64,000 nt of DNA, taken from Bacteroidetes bacterium 43-93. GTDB lineage: Bacteria > Bacteroidota > Bacteroidia > Chitinophagales > Chitinophagaceae. Positions within the stretch are counted from its first letter, which is position 1. Each line of letters begins with the position of its first letter. Of the stretch, positions 3,213-50,585 are shown piece by piece. The position numbers and the translations under genes were made by a program. The notes below the pieces were generated by a model, which did not search any database, was not told the DNA's origin, and saw only the letters and a program-made list of their open reading frames with translations. The DNA is taken from the NCBI GenBank assembly GCA_001897855.1, contig MKUO01000023.1, positions 62,001 through 126,000 on the forward strand, read 5' to 3'.

Positions 3213-4592
3213 TTAAATATTAGCTAAAACCAATTGCGGGACACAGCCTATCAATATTACCAGGGCACAAGTAATAGCCATCAGCAGCTTATCTGTACCG
3301 GTAACTTCTGAGCTAAATTCCGGTTCACCTTGCTTAAAGTACATGGCGATGATAACGCGGAAGTAGTAATAGGCGCTGATCGCAGCCATCAGCAATGCGA
3401 ATATTACCAGCCACAGCAAGTTGCCTTGTTTTACAGCGGCCATTAAGACAAAGTACTTTGCCATAAAGCCACCTGTAAGCGGTATGCCTGCTAATGATAA
3501 CAGGAAGATGGTAGTAAAGAATGCCAGTGCGGGATTTTTCTTTGCAAGCCCATTGAAGCCATCATAGGTATAATCCTTAAGCTTCAGCAGTACGGAGAAC
3601 ATACCAATGGTAGCCACACTGTAAGCTACTGCATAGAGTATCATTCCCTGCCATGCGGTAGCATTTACTGCAATGATGGCAAACAGCATAAAGCCAGCCT
3701 GCGCGATAGAAGAATATGCGAGCATACGCTTTACACTCTGCTGAAATACCGCAGTGATGTTACCTACAAATAAGGTGGCTGCGGTAATGATCGCCAATAT
3801 CATCATCCAATGATCGCTAAGCGAACCGAAGGAGACACTAAACAGGCGCATAAATGCCAGGAACGCTGCAGCCTTTACAATCGTAGCCATAAAAGCGGTG
3901 AACGGAGTAGGCGAACCATCATACACATCGGGTGTCCACATATGCATAGGTACTGCAGAAACCTTGAATGACAGCGCCACCATCAGGAACAGGATACCGG
4001 ATAATGCCAAGGGATTCAGCGAATCAGATTGCAGGAAAGTATATTCTACAATATTGAATGTACCTGTCGCTCCGTATAATAACACGATTCCCATTAACAG
4101 GATACCTGTAGAGAAAGAACCCATCAAAAAGTATTTCAGGGACGCTTCACTGCTTTTCAGATTGCGCTTGTCGCTACCTGCCAATATATACTGAGGTATA
4201 GAAATGATCTCAATACCTATGAACAGCATCAATACATTATTATAACTGCTTAGTAGATAAACACCACATAATATAAAAGCTATCAGGGCAAAATATTCTG
4301 CAACGTGCATGCCTACACGTTGTATGTCTTTATTTACCAGCATTACATATAGCAGCGTACAGGCAGTCATCAGCAGGTTGAACCACAGACCATAACGATC
4401 TATACGCAGCATGTTGTTAAACAGCACCTGCGGCTCTGATGGCGAGGTAGTTGCCAACTCCCATATATTTACGCCCAGCAACAAAAGAAAACCTACAACC
4501 GCGATGGATGCAATGGATCTTTTGTCCTTTGTTGCCAGTCCGGCAAACATCAGGATGATGCCAAGTAATGTTGCAGCTATTATTGCCTTCAT
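3213..4592 (-). CDS. nuoN: NADH-quinone oxidoreductase subunit N
   Basis: 459 residues, almost entirely transmembrane helices (about 13-14). It is an antiporter-like proton-pumping subunit of the membrane arm of respiratory complex I. Family marks include the conserved stretch S-G-I-L-F-L-M-V-A-L-S-F-K-V-S-A-V-P-x-H-M-W-T-P-D-V-Y-D-G-S-P-T with its buried Lys, and the helix K-R-M-L-A-Y-S-S-I-A-Q-A-G. It is the last gene of the nuo operon. The gap to nuoM is 88 nt without an evident promoter, and a strong terminator follows. Confidence 0.96.
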   Translation of the reverse strand: MKAIIAATLLGIILMFAGLATKDKRSIASIAVVGFLLLLGVNIWELATTSPSEPQVLFNNMLRIDRYGLWFNLLMTACTLLYVMLVNKDIQRVGMHVAEYFALIAFILCGVYLLSSYNNVLMLFIGIEIISIPQYILAGSDKRNLKSSEASLKYFLMGSFSTGILLMGIVLLYGATGTFNIVEYTFLQSDSLNPLALSGILFLMVALSFKVSAVPMHMWTPDVYDGSPTPFTAFMATIVKAAAFLAFMRLFSVSFGSLSDHWMMILAIITAATLFVGNITAVFQQSVKRMLAYSSIAQAGFMLFAIIAVNATAWQGMILYAVAYSVATIGMFSVLLKLKDYTYDGFNGLAKKNPALAFFTTIFLLSLAGIPLTGGFMAKYFVLMAAVKQGNLLWLVIFALLMAAISAYYYFRVIIAMYFKQGEPEFSSEVTGTDKLLMAITCALVILIGCVPQLVLANI

Positions 4593-10521: not shown

Positions 10522-11610
10522 TTAATTGTCTTTATTCTTCTTAAAGTCGTCTGAGTGTGCAGGCCCTTCTATTTTAGAAAGATCTACATCCGGCCTGTTC
10601 ACATCACTCACCTTATGTATGTCCAACAGCAGTTTCGGATTCTTTCCTATCACCCTATCAATATATACCGGCTGTTTTACAGTATCTACATAATGGCCCT
10701 GGGAAATTACGCTGTGTCGGTCTATCCTTGACGGCCCTTCTATCACCCAATCCTTCACTTCTTTTTTATGGAAACGGCAATCGTTACATATCCATTCTTC
10801 CACTTCGCCCCATTTATCTTTACGGGCAGTTACACGGAACACCTCATCACCACGCATCCACAGGCGAACTTTACCGCTACATGTAGGGCAATCGCGATGT
10901 GCATCTACCGGCTTGGTAAACCATACGCGGTTCTTAAAGCGGAAGGTCTTATCTGTAAGTGCACCAACAGGACAAACGTCTATTACATTGCCAATGAACT
11001 CATTATCCAGAGATTTGCCCAGGAGTGTGCTGATCTCAGCATGGTCGCCACGCTCCAGAATGCCATGCTCCCTTTTATTGGTCAGCTGGTCTGCCGTAAA
11101 TACACAACGATAACACAGGATGCAACGCGTCATGTGCAGTTGTATATATTCACCTATATCTTCTTTTTCAAACGTACGACGATCAAATTCGTAGCGCGTA
11201 CCCGAAGCACCGTGCTCGTAGCTCAGGTCCTGCAAATGACATTCACCGGCCTGGTCGCAAACAGGGCAATCCAGCGGGTGGTTGATCAGCAGCATTTCCA
11301 CTACACCTTTACGCGCATCCAGCACTTTATCAGAAGTGATATTTTTCACTTCCATGCCATCCATCACAGTGGTACGGCAGCTTGCCACCAGCTTAGGCAT
11401 GGGGCGCGGATCCTTTTCAGAACCCTTGCTTACCTCTACCAGGCAGGTACGGCATTTACCACCACTGCCTTCCAGCTTGCTGTAGTAACACATAGCCGGC
11501 GGGGTTACATCGCCACCAATCATACGCGCAGCGTTCAGGATAGTAGTACCTGCGGGTACTTCTATCGTTATATTATCGATCGTTACTTTAAACTTCGGTT
11601 GTTCTGACAT
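10522..11610 (-). CDS. nuoG: NADH-quinone oxidoreductase subunit G, short form without molybdopterin domain
   Basis: 362 residues. The 2Fe-2S ferredoxin domain has Cys 41, 53, 56 and 78. A His/Cys3 site (H111, C115, C118, C124) and a 4Fe-4S site (C163, C166, C169, C213) follow. Then comes the start of the molybdopterin-type Fe-S region (C241, C244, C275, C278). The protein ends soon after, while classical NuoG continues for several hundred residues. The stop codon is followed at normal spacing by nuoH, so this looks like the genuine short form known from Bacteroidota, not a frameshift. The four-helix-bundle gene separates it from nuoF. Confidence 0.94.
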   Translation of the reverse strand: MSEQPKFKVTIDNITIEVPAGTTILNAARMIGGDVTPPAMCYYSKLEGSGGKCRTCLVEVSKGSEKDPRPMPKLVASCRTTVMDGMEVKNITSDKVLDARKGVVEMLLINHPLDCPVCDQAGECHLQDLSYEHGASGTRYEFDRRTFEKEDIGEYIQLHMTRCILCYRCVFTADQLTNKREHGILERGDHAEISTLLGKSLDNEFIGNVIDVCPVGALTDKTFRFKNRVWFTKPVDAHRDCPTCSGKVRLWMRGDEVFRVTARKDKWGEVEEWICNDCRFHKKEVKDWVIEGPSRIDRHSVISQGHYVDTVKQPVYIDRVIGKNPKLLLDIHKVSDVNRPDVDLSKIEGPAHSDDFKKNKDN

Positions 11611-11615
11611 ACGTT

Positions 11616-11650
11616 AAGTCAAAGGTTAAAAGTCAAAACCAAAAAATCAG
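11616..11650. repeat. Heptad array, right-pointing arm next to the four-helix-bundle gene
   Basis: Consecutive 7-mers AAGTCAA, AGGTTAA, AAGTCAA, AACCAAA, AAATCAG run from 11616 to 11650. The consensus is close to AAGTYAA with an exact 7-nt period. The last bases overlap the end of the four-helix-bundle gene. It forms an inverted pair with the array at 12007-12027. Confidence 0.75.
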
Positions 11651-11997
11651 TTTTTCTTTTTTAAAGAAAGAATAGACGATGCTAAAATCCTGCATATTTC
11701 GTCACATTCTTTCAATAATAATTTTAATTCATTTTCTTTTATTTCAAATCCATCCCTTAGAATACAAATCCAATATTTTGTCTCATTCCCGGATTTCAAA
11801 GCTATTTCGTAGTATCTCTTGAACTCTGTTCTTGAAGAACTATTTGCAGCTTCGACAACGTTAGCACCTATTGACATTGCAGACCTCATAAGCTGCTTTG
11901 CTACAATAGAACTAAAGCTGTTCCAGTTTTTATCTTTCAAATATCTTACCGTATCCAGTGAAAAATTATAACAGCGATATTTTATATCATTTGCCAC
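11647..11997 (-). CDS. Four-helix-bundle protein (23S rRNA-intervening-sequence / Avd-like family) inside the nuo operon
   Basis: 116 residues, GTG start at 11997. The centre reads M-R-S-A-M-S-I-G-A-N-V-V-E-A, then a basic/acidic helix, A-L-K-S-G-N-E-T-K-Y-W and a final helix. This is the pattern of the small four-helix-bundle family first noticed in 23S rRNA intervening sequences, and related to the Avd protein of diversity-generating retroelements. The molecular role is unknown; basic members bind nucleic acid. The gene is visibly more A+T-rich than the nuo genes on both sides, which suggests a separate origin. It is bracketed by heptad arrays in inverted orientation and splits nuoF from nuoG, a position with no functional logic for complex I. 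There is no reverse transcriptase or rRNA nearby. Confidence 0.85.
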   Translation of the reverse strand: MANDIKYRCYNFSLDTVRYLKDKNWNSFSSIVAKQLMRSAMSIGANVVEAANSSSRTEFKRYYEIALKSGNETKYWICILRDGFEIKENELKLLLKECDEICRILASSILSLKKKN

Positions 11998-12006
11998 TTA
12001 CAGCTT

Positions 12007-12027
12007 TTCACTTTTAACTTTTGCCTT
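12007..12027. repeat. Heptad array, left-pointing arm next to the four-helix-bundle gene
   Basis: TTCACTT, TTAACTT, TTGCCTT are the reverse-complement type of the AAGTYAA word at 11616-11650. The array fills the gap between nuoF and the four-helix-bundle gene and reaches the nuoF stop codon. Confidence 0.65.
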
Positions 12028-13375
12028 AGCCCACAGCCGGAACATGTATCGGATCAGCGTAATGCGCTAATCCAAAATTCCTTTTCTGTGATTCTTCAGG
12101 GTTCAGTACATGCCATTCAAATTCATCGCGGAAGTGGCGGATAGCAGCAGCTACAGGCCATGCAGCGGCATCTCCCAGCGGACAAATGGTATTACCTTCT
12201 ATCTTGCGCTGGATATCCCATAGCAGGTCTATATCGCTCATCTTACCTTTTCCGTATTCTATGTTCTTCAGTATTTTATACATCCAGCCGGTACCTTCAC
12301 GACAAGGGCTGCATTGTCCGCAGCTCTCGTGGTTATAGAAACGGGCTAACGTCATAGTATGGCGTACCACGCACTGGTCTTCATCAAACACAATAAAACC
12401 ACCCGAACCCATCATAGAACCGGTAGCGAAGCCACCGTCTGAAAGGCTTTCATAGTTCATATAGCGGGTTTCGCCCTTTGCTGTTTTCAGCAATAGGTTA
12501 GCCGGCAGTATAGGTACAGACGATCCACCCGGTATGCAAGCCTTCAGTTTTTTACCGTTAGCAATACCACCGCAGTATTCATCAGAGAAGATGAACTCTT
12601 CCACTGATTGTGTCATATCTATTTCGTAGATACCAGGCTTTTTTACATTACCGCAAACAGATAACAGCTTAGTACCGGTAGAACGGCCTACACCTATTTT
12701 AGAATAGGCTTCGCCACCCATATTTAATATAGGTACTACGGCAGCCAGCGTTTCTACATTGTTTACCACGGTCGGGCGCATCCACAAACCCTGTATGGCA
12801 GGGAATGGTGGCTTGATACGTGGGTTACCACGTTTGCCTTCCAGTGATTCTATCAGGGCTGTTTCTTCACCGCAGATATAAGCACCTGCACCACGCTGCA
12901 CATATATTTCGCAATCAAACCCGCTGTTCAGGATGTTTTTACCCAGCCAGCCATTGTTCTTTGCTTCTGTTATTGCCTGCTCCAGTATATCTACTATCCA
13001 TGCGTACTCACCACGTATATAAATATAGGTAGCATTGCTTCCCAGTGCGAAGCTGCTCACGATAAGGCCTTCGATCAGCAGGTGCGGAATGAATTCCATC
13101 AGGTAGCGGTCTTTGAAAGTACCCGGCTCTGATTCATCCGCGTTGCACACCAGGTGACGGGGTATTCCTTCCGGCTTGGCCAGGAAGCTCCATTTCATAC
13201 CTGTAGGGAAACCCGCGCCGCCACGGCCACGCAGGCCGCTTTTCTTCACTTCTTCCACTATCTCGTCGGGTGTCATCTTAAACGCCTTCTCTACTGCACG
13301 ATAGCCACCGTTCTTACGGTAGGCATCGTAGTAGCGAATACCCTCAACATGTGCGTGTTCTAATAATAATTTCAT
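12026..13375 (-). CDS. nuoF: NADH-quinone oxidoreductase subunit F (NADH and FMN binding)
   Basis: 449 residues from the ATG at 13375; the open frame extends two codons further to a TTG, which I do not use. The subunit oxidises NADH, passes hydride to FMN and electrons to cluster N3. The FMN/NADH glycine loop G-R-G-G-A-G-F-P-T-G is at about 50-59. C-G-E-E-T-A-L-I-E-S-L-E-G-K-R-G follows in the middle. The N3 ligands S-C-G-Q-C-S-P-C-R-E-G lie near 350-358, with the fourth Cys in C-P-L-G-D-A near 399. It is part of the operon, but separated from nuoE by two foreign genes and from nuoG by one. Confidence 0.97.
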   Translation of the reverse strand: MKLLLEHAHVEGIRYYDAYRKNGGYRAVEKAFKMTPDEIVEEVKKSGLRGRGGAGFPTGMKWSFLAKPEGIPRHLVCNADESEPGTFKDRYLMEFIPHLLIEGLIVSSFALGSNATYIYIRGEYAWIVDILEQAITEAKNNGWLGKNILNSGFDCEIYVQRGAGAYICGEETALIESLEGKRGNPRIKPPFPAIQGLWMRPTVVNNVETLAAVVPILNMGGEAYSKIGVGRSTGTKLLSVCGNVKKPGIYEIDMTQSVEEFIFSDEYCGGIANGKKLKACIPGGSSVPILPANLLLKTAKGETRYMNYESLSDGGFATGSMMGSGGFIVFDEDQCVVRHTMTLARFYNHESCGQCSPCREGTGWMYKILKNIEYGKGKMSDIDLLWDIQRKIEGNTICPLGDAAAWPVAAAIRHFRDEFEWHVLNPEESQKRNFGLAHYADPIHVPAVG

Positions 13376-13379
13376 TATC

Positions 13380-13445
13380 AAGTCAAAAGTTAAAAGTCAA
13401 AAATCAAAAATGACATCATTTTGATCCGGCCTTTTGAATTTTAAT
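13380..13445. repeat. Heptad arrays in inverted orientation upstream of nuoF
   Basis: AAGTCAA, AAGTTAA, AAGTCAA, AAATCAA, AAATGAC run in exact 7-nt steps at 13380-13414. After a short spacer, words of the opposite orientation follow: TTTTGAT at 13419, TTTTGAA at 13432, TTTTAAT at 13439. The two arms could pair into a long imperfect hairpin in RNA between the NTF2-like gene and nuoF. Confidence 0.65.
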
Positions 13446-13862
13446 TTAAATCCTGGTACTCTGCCTGCTAAGCAGCTTCCATTGTTTATTCTTCCATATC
13501 CACACCTGCAACACCATTAACTTAAAATGCACAGGCTTGCCTTCCATCACCACATCTATTTCTGACGTTGCCCGCACACATGCCGTACTGCCTTCCAATG
13601 TTATCTGCTGATCGGTCGAACTGATATTTTTATAGATGATCTTACCATTGTACAGATCTTCTATAAGTTCCCTTTTCGATTGCTTCCAGCCGTTTGAATG
13701 GCCGTAGATCAGTTTATCATCCAGCAGCTTCTTCAGTTCTACCGTATCCCTGTCTACCAGGGCATTAGTAAAATCATCTGCTGCAATACCCGCACTTCTT
13801 TCACTTTGTGCGGATACAGAACTATAAATAAAGAGCAACGAGATCAATACAAGGTATCTCAT
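13446..13862 (-). CDS. Secreted NTF2-like / DUF4440-type protein
   Basis: 138 residues starting at the ATG at 13862; the longer open frame lacks a signal peptide at its start. Residues 1-18 form a signal peptide ending near S-V-S-A-Q. The rest fits the small cone-shaped NTF2-like fold: an N-terminal helix pair (D-D-F-T-N-A-L-V-D-R-D, L-K-K-L-L-D-D-K-L-I-Y-G-H-S-N-G), then strands ending L-Q-V-W-I-W-K-N-K-Q-W-K-L-L-S-R-Q. Such proteins are often ligand-binding or enzymes of unknown substrate, and no catalytic residues can be assigned. The start codon is 1 nt from the stop codon of the START-like gene, so both are translated from the nuo transcript. No known link to complex I. Confidence 0.75.
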   Translation of the reverse strand: MRYLVLISLLFIYSSVSAQSERSAGIAADDFTNALVDRDTVELKKLLDDKLIYGHSNGWKQSKRELIEDLYNGKIIYKNISSTDQQITLEGSTACVRATSEIDVVMEGKPVHFKLMVLQVWIWKNKQWKLLSRQSTRI

Positions 13863-13863
13863 A

Positions 13864-14268
13864 TTAATATCGTTTGGTAGCGTATATATATTCCTCCAGC
13901 GGCCCAAAAAAGTAATCGTCCCAACCCTGCTTTTGCTCATCCGCTTCTTCCTGTGTAGGCAGGTTCGTATGATGTAAGATCACTTTAGTGCCTTCCTTAT
14001 CACTACTCAATAAAAAATGAACTTCTGATGGTGCTGTGCTCTCTTCCCACTCTATCGGTTTCCAGCTGTAAGCCAGCTCTTTATCCGTTAATTTCTTTAC
14101 TTCGCCGCTCACCCATCCGTCAAACATCTGAAATTTTCCACCAACCTGCGGCTCCAGTACCGCTTCTTCACCGCTCCATTTCCTTATCAATGCCGTGTCT
14201 GTCAGCATTTGCATGGTTTGCTTCGGCGTACCCGGTATCACAAATTCCAACTCCAGATCGTACGCCAT
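13864..14268 (-). CDS. START-like / AHSA1-type (SRPBCC) domain protein
   Basis: 134 residues forming one SRPBCC (Bet v 1-like) domain. The first strand Y-D-L-E-L-E-F-V-I-P-G-T is followed by the helix around residues 14-30 with I-R-K-W-S-G. The V-G-G-K-F-x-M-F-D-G-W-V-S-G-E-V segment matches the Hsp90-activator (AHSA1) type, and an amphipathic C-terminal helix G-W-D-D-Y-F-F-G-P-L-E-E-Y-I closes the fold. The fold binds hydrophobic ligands or partner proteins; the ligand is unknown. It sits 5 nt after nuoE and 1 nt before the NTF2-like gene, clearly in the nuo transcript, which raises the possibility of an assembly role. Confidence 0.85.
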   Translation of the reverse strand: MAYDLELEFVIPGTPKQTMQMLTDTALIRKWSGEEAVLEPQVGGKFQMFDGWVSGEVKKLTDKELAYSWKPIEWEESTAPSEVHFLLSSDKEGTKVILHHTNLPTQEEADEQKQGWDDYFFGPLEEYIYATKRY

Positions 14269-17189: not shown

Positions 17190-17198
17190 ATTTTTAAA

Positions 17199-17233
17199 AA
17201 TTCAAAAGTCAACAATCAAAATTCAAAATGCAA
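17199..17233. repeat. Heptad array between nuoB and nuoA
   Basis: AATTCAA, AAGTCAA, CAATCAA, AATTCAA, AATGCAA are five consecutive 7-mers in exact register. Four of the five carry CAA in positions 5-7 preceded by T. They share the general word of the arrays at 11616 and 13380. Confidence 0.7.
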
Positions 17234-50491: not shown

Positions 50492-50515
50492 GCTATCCGA
50501 ATACTAACAATTCAA

Positions 50516-50585
50516 ACTGCATACTGAAAACTGCCAATTGCAAACTGTAAACTGCCTACTGAAAATTGCCTACTGCAAACTGTTA
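50516..50585. repeat. Heptad array of ten ACTGNNN words before serS
   Basis: Ten consecutive 7-mers keep exact register: ACTGCAT, ACTGAAA, ACTGCCA, ATTGCAA, ACTGTAA, ACTGCCT, ACTGAAA, ATTGCCT, ACTGCAA, ACTGTTA. The first four bases are ACTG (eight) or ATTG (two); the last three vary. The array is inverted relative to 50352-50415. Confidence 0.9.

Follow-up and report, generated by a model that had tools for sequence, protein, structure and literature searches.

What is a small, A+T-rich gene doing between nuoF and nuoG? In Bacteroidetes bacterium 43-93 the nuo operon runs along the minus strand of the 64,000-nt stretch of contig MKUO01000023.1 analysed here (the window), and the gap between these two genes holds a single open reading frame, called fhb below, for a four-helix-bundle protein (Table 1). 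An earlier note on this DNA had seen inverted arrays of 7-nt words around the gene and proposed that it is a mobile cassette, akin to the intervening sequences (IVS) of 23S rRNA but inserted in an operon gap.

Table 1. Positions in the window of fhb, its neighbours, its arms and arrays elsewhere among the nuo genes.
Feature	Position	Strand	Details
nuoG	10522-11610	-	flanks fhb, downstream side
Gap from nuoF stop to nuoG ATG	11611-12025	-	415 nt, treated as the cassette
Downstream arm (nuoG side)	11615-11638	+	TAAGTCAAAGGTTAAAAGTCAAAA; in operon sense TTTTGACTTTTAACCTTTGACTTA
fhb (four-helix-bundle gene)	11647-11997	-	116 aa; 23S_rRNA_IVP/TIGR02436 family (S23p)
Upstream arm (nuoF side)	12005-12028	-	in operon sense TAAGGCAAAAGTTAAAAGTGAAAA
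nuoF	12026-13381	-	flanks fhb, upstream side
Array directly upstream of nuoF, without fhb	13380-13455	-	in sense ...AAATTAAAATTCAAAAGG...TTTTGACTTTTAACTTTTGAC
Period-7 array between nuoA and nuoB	17197-17233	-	polarity that of the downstream arm

The identity of the gene is as the earlier note had it: the protein matches the profiles PF05635 (E 4.5e-19) and TIGR02436 (E 2.4e-22). Its PDB relatives are 2rld and 2gsc, which a PDB profile search with fhb returned together with three weak designed proteins and without Avd; PF05635 (2GSC) has been described as homologous to BPP-1 Avd (4DWL) (PMC10053308). The Xanthomonas S23p crystal structure is a toroidal homopentamer of four-helix bundles, and the function of S23p/IVP proteins is stated in the same source as not known (PMC4990558). 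The unusual composition also holds, with a GC content of 0.316 for fhb against 0.478 for nuoF and 0.473 for nuoG. Only one of the window's 57 called ORFs of at least 100 aa (longest ORFs called by script, with no trained gene finder) has a GC content down to that of fhb, and fhb has the length to be that one. The source genome (G000; 3.99 Mb in 27 contigs) contains six fhb genes at E 0.001. Compared by eye, each of the six appears to have a flanking word of its own, the right side being of the reverse-complement type of the left. Elsewhere in the operon, nuoE and nuoF are separated by DUF4440 and AHSA1 genes (13446-14268).

The inverted arrays described in the earlier note are present. An array of AAGTCAA type, AAGTCAAAGGTTAAAAGTCAA, lies at 11616-11636 (+) on the nuoG side, its opposite-strand match, AAGGCAAAAGTTAAAAGTGAA, at 12007-12027 on the nuoF side, and the nuoF-side arm aligns over 24 nt, with a score of 33, to the reverse complement of its nuoG-side partner. 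The arms are short, about three words each, and the TAA of the upstream arm TAAGGCAAAAGTTAAAAGTGAAAA doubles as the nuoF stop codon. Tandem Repeats Finder reports the nuoF side only (12004-12022, score 31), and a strict array rule flags three of the window's 42 gaps, neither fhb arm being among them. A three-copy AAGTYAA pattern with up to three mismatches hits the window six times, some hits overlapping, against 0.01 expected from shuffles, and two of the six are the fhb arms. The same word often forms solo arrays in G000 (66 overlapping hits against three for a reversed control pattern); thus an array alone is nothing special, and it is the matched inverted pair that is. The array directly upstream of nuoF may possibly, on the weak sign of a fold z of -1.5, be a form consisting of arms only, while no clear inverted partner was seen for the array between nuoA and nuoB (fold z 0.5). 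At 50499-50583 the window also has a long period-7 array of CAAACTG type, with about ten copies and no adjoining fhb gene. At 18 places inspected in G000 (L017-L045), 13 of the 15 AAGTCAA arrays between co-directional genes carry TTGACTT on the sense strand, nine of these 13 are no more than 20 nt away from the next start as called, and one of the 15 is fhb's own arm; a role of such solo arrays in translation initiation is possible. Several of these array and junction readings (the G000 fhb loci, the solo arrays, and the nuo and rmlA sites) were judged partly by eye.

Do matched arms accompany such genes in general? Across 36 loci (30 from a search of the genome's bacterial family and the six of G000), comparison of the 200 nt upstream of the gene with the reverse complement of the 200 nt that follow it gave a median score of 31.5 for a locus's own pair and 17 for mispaired flanks, and 24 loci exceeded the mispaired 95% level. 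In a further set from the family, with 10 kb of context, 30 of 40 fhb loci had matched inverted arms at the threshold. These 40 were picked in E-value order among the rows listed, some rows being passed over (near contig ends, with an in-frame stop, from the genome itself, and a few others). Other ORFs of 75-220 aa had such arms in six of 99 cases, or in 3 of 96 after three that were themselves fhb or GxxExxY genes had been removed (Fisher p 3e-18). This count, which the earlier note had proposed, came out in favour of its reading, and a generic small-gene effect is rejected as the cause of the matched arms. Mispaired fhb flanks passed the threshold in 34 of 1560 combinations, and flanks in direct orientation in 4 of 40. 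At lag 7 the flanks of fhb have a self-match of 0.371 and those of controls one of 0.290, the signal recurring at lags 14 and 21, and arrays under the strict rule occur upstream in 12/40 and downstream in 12/40 fhb loci, compared with 4/96 and 5/96 for controls. Furthermore, among 80 named loci from many phyla, the top-ranking 80 of the 586 relatives confirmed for a single six-sequence subfamily alignment, 48 have matched arms and 12 direct matches, against 8 of 189 control ORFs not cleaned of fhb. The association of fhb genes with matched inverted arms is real and general. Ten of the 40 family loci and 32 of the 80 named ones fall below the arm threshold, the latter including loci of Xanthomonas, Tenacibaculum and Gemmatimonadota.

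The arms have a characteristic build. Their words vary between loci and agree within a locus, and are mostly of 7 nt, sometimes of 8. Arms exceed the threshold in 77 of 100 fhb loci, 60 of them with a best period of 7 and 15 with one of 8; for the 48 named loci with matched arms the figures are 33 and 13. Read on the sense strand, the recurrent words of the upstream arm often contain an AG core (AGT, AAG, TAG, AGC), and AG repeats exceed CT repeats there in 49 of the 77 loci against 11 for the reverse (17 ties), and in 31 against 3 (14 ties) of the 48 named loci. When stops and ATGs are looked for only near the arms, the upstream gene's stop codon falls at the first bases of the arm (median -3 nt in 114 loci, 67 of them within 10 nt), and the median distance from the downstream arm to the next ATG is 6 nt (97 loci). 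Stops in all three frames occur in 52 of 118 upstream arms, with 26.3 expected from mononucleotide shuffles, an excess that is suggestive only. The gene reads with both neighbours in 31 of 39 cases and against both in 3 (57 and 1 of 72 in the named set). Orientation bias as a sign of an RNA-dependent element was dropped because control genes show the same ratio (137 and 20 of 252).

Genes of the GxxExxY type (TIGR04256) also stand between inverted repeats, 21 of 30 exceeding the mispaired 95% level (L107-L136), with words of 8-9 nt such as CACAGAGR, CGCAAAGR and CGCAGATNN. In 21 GxxExxY arms from the same bacterial family the best period is 9 in ten and 8 in six, without a lag-7 signal. Direct matches are frequent at these loci as well (10/30 over the 99% level), so the GxxExxY flanks are more complex.

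The behaviour of the arms over evolutionary time supports, on sequence comparison, the view that arms and gene act as one unit and have probably relocated together with their ends. At the same site an upstream arm fits its own downstream arm better than that of an orthologue (33.8 against 24.3, over 25 groups with 81 of the 180 loci; 101 of 125 pairs in the same direction; equalled in 0 of 20000 permutations), which means that both arms change together. An earlier test within the genus was weaker (seven sites, p ~0.005), and the transaldolase, nuoK-nuoL and 'folB?' sites showed no co-change in it. At 65-80% protein identity, arm-word similarity is 34.1 for 54 pairs at the same site and 34.1 for 20 pairs at different sites, where loci recur and pairs are thus not independent, whereas at different sites with 25-55% identity it is 13.4-13.7. 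Two sites count as different here when BLASTP links their longest flanking open frames neither upstream nor downstream of the gene; frames under 50 aa cannot be linked, and pairs linked by one flank only were excluded. At 55-65% identity the same-site value is higher (33.1 in 19 pairs against 20.6 in 122), so site or vertical descent matters too. Overall, arm and protein similarity correlate weakly, with a rank correlation of 0.10 that is exceeded in 4 of 500 Mantel permutations. Likeness stops at the arms: beyond them, 42 of 44 values stay under the background 95% level (22 of the 57 different-site pairs that are at least 60% alike). Copies in KSB1, Nitrospirae and Desulfobacteraceae, 67-69% alike, align across gene and arms, though these are MAG contigs for which wrong binning is possible. 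The earlier note had also wondered whether such proteins ride on arrays or create them. Co-change and shared words speak for riding; creation finds no such backing, as the three strict-rule gaps of the window have no fhb gene inside.

Comparison of sites between relatives supports, again at the level of sequence, a unit that is present or absent between sister species. Among 14 members of the genus (G000 and G002-G014; G001, with a partial match, was left out), the nuoF-nuoG junction holds fhb only in G000, G003 and G004 and lacks it in the other 11, sister species included, so the gene is not universal there, as the junction check suggested in the earlier note now tells us. The copies of G000 and G003 are 74% alike and have similar arms; that of G004 is 42-43% alike to both and has an in-frame stop. 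Eight members have an array of TTTTGACTT type without a gene, G013 has one such word, and G008 and G012 have nothing alike. At these eight array-only junctions, spread over the genus nuoF tree, the gene may have been lost with one arm left behind, or the array may predate the insertion. Because the array persists in the eight empty sites, loss fits as well as gain at nuoF-nuoG, and here the mobile-cassette reading of the earlier note, which comparison otherwise supports, cannot tell the two apart. In other genera the same junction contains fhb in G017 (E 1e-28), a shortened piece in G021 (E 1e-5), and in G015 and G023 a GxxExxY gene (L061, L065; E below 1e-37) between other inverted repeats, as judged by eye. 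One junction can thus hold non-orthologous fhb genes (23-28% or 42-43% alike) or GxxExxY genes.

The sister of G000 on the nuoF tree is G014 (support 100/100), which is without fhb at nuoF-nuoG and has one at nuoK-nuoL, where the gap of G000 is 3 nt long ('GCG|TTGACT') and identical to that of the distant G013. At the rmlA site, matched in 11 of 13 genomes searched besides G000 (G009 and G012 gave no match), G000, G004, G010 and G011 are filled with fhb, and G002, G003, G005, G006, G008 and G013 have a tight stop/start junction with no array; the junction of G014 is tight except for a few nucleotides. G007 retains both inverted arms with the gene missing. This and nuoH-nuoI in G005 are the only two gene-less inverted pairs seen by eye, and no target-site duplication was recognised by eye at the rmlA site.

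The protein itself is under purifying selection. In seven of ten fhb orthologue pairs dN/dS is 0.03-0.12, with dS 1.3-3.1; one nearly identical pair with very few changes gives 0.51, and in two pairs synonymous change is beyond measure, including the window's fhb against that of G003 (pN 0.158, pS 0.769). With the protein kept and synonymous sites saturated, the arms should have decayed unless they are homogenised or selected. Movement appears to be old or rare, since none of 88 within-genome fhb pairs reaches 90% identity (best 68; five loci with a misread frame were left out); a recent burst of copying is rejected on this count. The unit contains no transposase, recombinase or reverse transcriptase, its sole gene matching PF05635 only. 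Reverse transcription in G000 is unlikely. RVT_1 has no match in this genome, which is 98.8% complete, and the numbers of fhb and reverse transcriptase genes do not correlate across 98 genomes (rho 0.13, p 0.19); dependence on reverse transcriptase is rejected on both counts.

What, then, keeps the arms alike? They might pair in the transcript as in an rRNA IVS, with fhb in the loop, excision by RNase III without ligation and selection for the pairing. The anatomy of the Coxiella IVS, with its S23p ORF, complementary ends, tandem heptamers (GACAGAT) and RNase III cleavage, is similar (PMC4990558), stems of heptad words with repeated class switches are known from the Nostoc trnL intron (PMC4476775), and the RNA of the element folds better than shuffles (z -3.1). 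However, inspection by eye shows the arms only partly paired in the predicted fold, and 17 of the 80 named loci, when searched, had no rRNA match. If RNA pairing were the constraint on the arms, an excess of G:U mismatches would be expected, and it is not seen: G:U and A:C number 80 and 104 in the 77 loci and 48 and 62 in the 48 named ones. Because A:C mismatches are at least as many, a process at the DNA level (hairpins on either strand, or template switching between arms) or recognition of the words by a protein would fit better than RNA pairing. I thus regard an RNA element as unlikely here; the resemblance to rRNA IVS drawn in the earlier note stands for the anatomy. As the keeper of arm likeness, RNA pairing is not favoured by the mismatch counts.

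Two further explanations do away with movement. An fhb gene may be ancestral at each site and often lost, empty sites being losses that perhaps left one array behind. Purifying selection, the likeness of the G000 and G003 copies and of their arms, the scatter of array-only sites over the nuoF tree and the same-site excess at 55-65% identity are all as such descent would have it. But it must contend with array-free rmlA junctions in six members of the genus and a nearly tight one in G014, with a nuoK-nuoL junction common to G000 and the distant G013 while the sister G014 is filled, and with non-orthologous guests at one junction, and I think it improbable. The other explanation is that 7-nt slippage arrays with a fixed stop/start polarity are a generic intergenic feature beside which fhb merely sits. 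Solo arrays do abound in G000, with the polarity described above, and heptamer arrays are known to precede start codons (MacGregor 2015, PMC4679880). Yet other small ORFs of the same regions and mispaired fhb flanks rarely show matched arms, arm words track the protein lineage at different sites, and the period differs in GxxExxY units of this family, all of which makes this account very doubtful.

I consider it probable that fhb and its two inverted arms form a mobile intercistronic unit of ~0.4-0.5 kb, with a protein that would recognise its own ends, movement supplied in trans and an insertion that costs little. Such a unit would sit in the space from one gene's stop codon to the next gene's start codon. 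By analogy with the solved pentameric relative, the protein would form a ring able to recognise, in single-stranded DNA or RNA, the words that recur every 7 (or 8) nt in its own arms, and such recognition may mark where the unit begins and ends, so that it could on rare occasions be copied or transferred. The enzymes for those steps would come from host repair, recombination or another element, and mirror-image arms running from stop codon to start codon would keep the insertion cheap for the operon.

How does such a unit compare with known systems? In REPIN/RAYT systems a gene is flanked by inverted short repeats, gene-less forms are dispersed, the RAYT protein is a Y1/HUH nuclease and the REP sequence is common across the genome. 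An fhb gene between inverted arms is similar in layout, but the unit has no nuclease or Y1 (HUH) transposase gene and its words differ by locus; unlike a transposon or IS, it has no transposase of its own. From diversity-generating retroelements, whose Avd is described as a homologue of PF05635 (PMC10053308), it differs in that G000 has no reverse transcriptase match. The 23S rRNA IVS of Coxiella and Leptospira share the protein family, the size of ~0.4 kb and complementary ends, including in Coxiella the tandem heptamers (PMC4990558), whereas the unit of the window lies between protein genes, and arm words vary by locus and follow the protein lineage. The rRNA genes of CPR bacteria have insertions with 23S_rRNA_IVP ORFs scattered over several insertion sites, and shorter forms without ORFs are described (PMC11270868); these insertions differ in their rRNA context and in the dominance of homing endonucleases, and the excerpted text of that paper does not mention heptad arms. 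The P6b stem of the Nostoc trnL intron likewise consists of pairing 7-nt words with repeated switches of word class, but it belongs to a group I intron, and an fhb gene is not mentioned in the excerpts of that paper (PMC4476775). TAACTGA and other heptamer arrays are 7-nt direct repeats, many of them right before start codons, and they occur in a few Bacteroidetes as well; they differ in being single arrays, and the paper makes no mention of S23, four helix or intervening (PMC4679880). IVP genes have been reported within cas operons, one between cmr3 and cmr2 (PMC3936711), and in Flavobacterium columnare a four-helix-bundle gene stands between those for guanylate kinase and nicotinic acid mononucleotide adenylyltransferase (PMC5524665). 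Among the matches listed from a search of the open-licence literature, none describes fhb genes that lie between cistrons and are flanked by heptad arms.

More tentatively, and with somewhat less than even confidence, I suggest that these units represent a widespread, unnamed class of cassettes in which a ring-shaped fhb protein would recognise the 7-nt (or 8-nt) words of its inverted arms and co-evolve with them as lock and key. GxxExxY genes with arms of 8-9 nt and DUF559 genes with CCCCTAAAGGGG arms would be parallel classes, and an rRNA IVS would be a cassette that landed in rRNA. Relatives of S23p/IVP genes occur in the genomes of many phyla. If fhb genes do travel with heptad arms, the family would gain a testable role in recognising its own ends, some of the puzzling 7-nt arrays between bacterial genes would have a cause, and rRNA IVS and small genes that interrupt conserved operons would come under one frame.

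The junctions of the nuo operon hold other small genes in this genus. At nuoJ-nuoK of G009 a DUF559 gene (L313, 3373-3753, minus strand; flanks ~3360-3795) is bracketed by ACCCCCTAGCCCCCTAAAGGGGG and GCCCCTTTAGGGGTTTGGGGT, and gene-less stretches with ends of DUF559 type were seen by eye at nuoK-nuoL in G005, G007 and G009 and, less alike, in G003. Pairs of nucleotidyltransferase and HepT-like genes, of the toxin-antitoxin type, occupy nuoH-nuoI of G004 (L315, 4002-4639) and nuoG-nuoH of G007 (L316, 2580-3174). Finally, the start codon of nuoL is TTG where the nuoK-nuoL gap is 3 nt (G000, G013 and G008) and ATG in the remaining 11 of the 14 genomes, where the gap is longer or filled, as if translational coupling had been lost.
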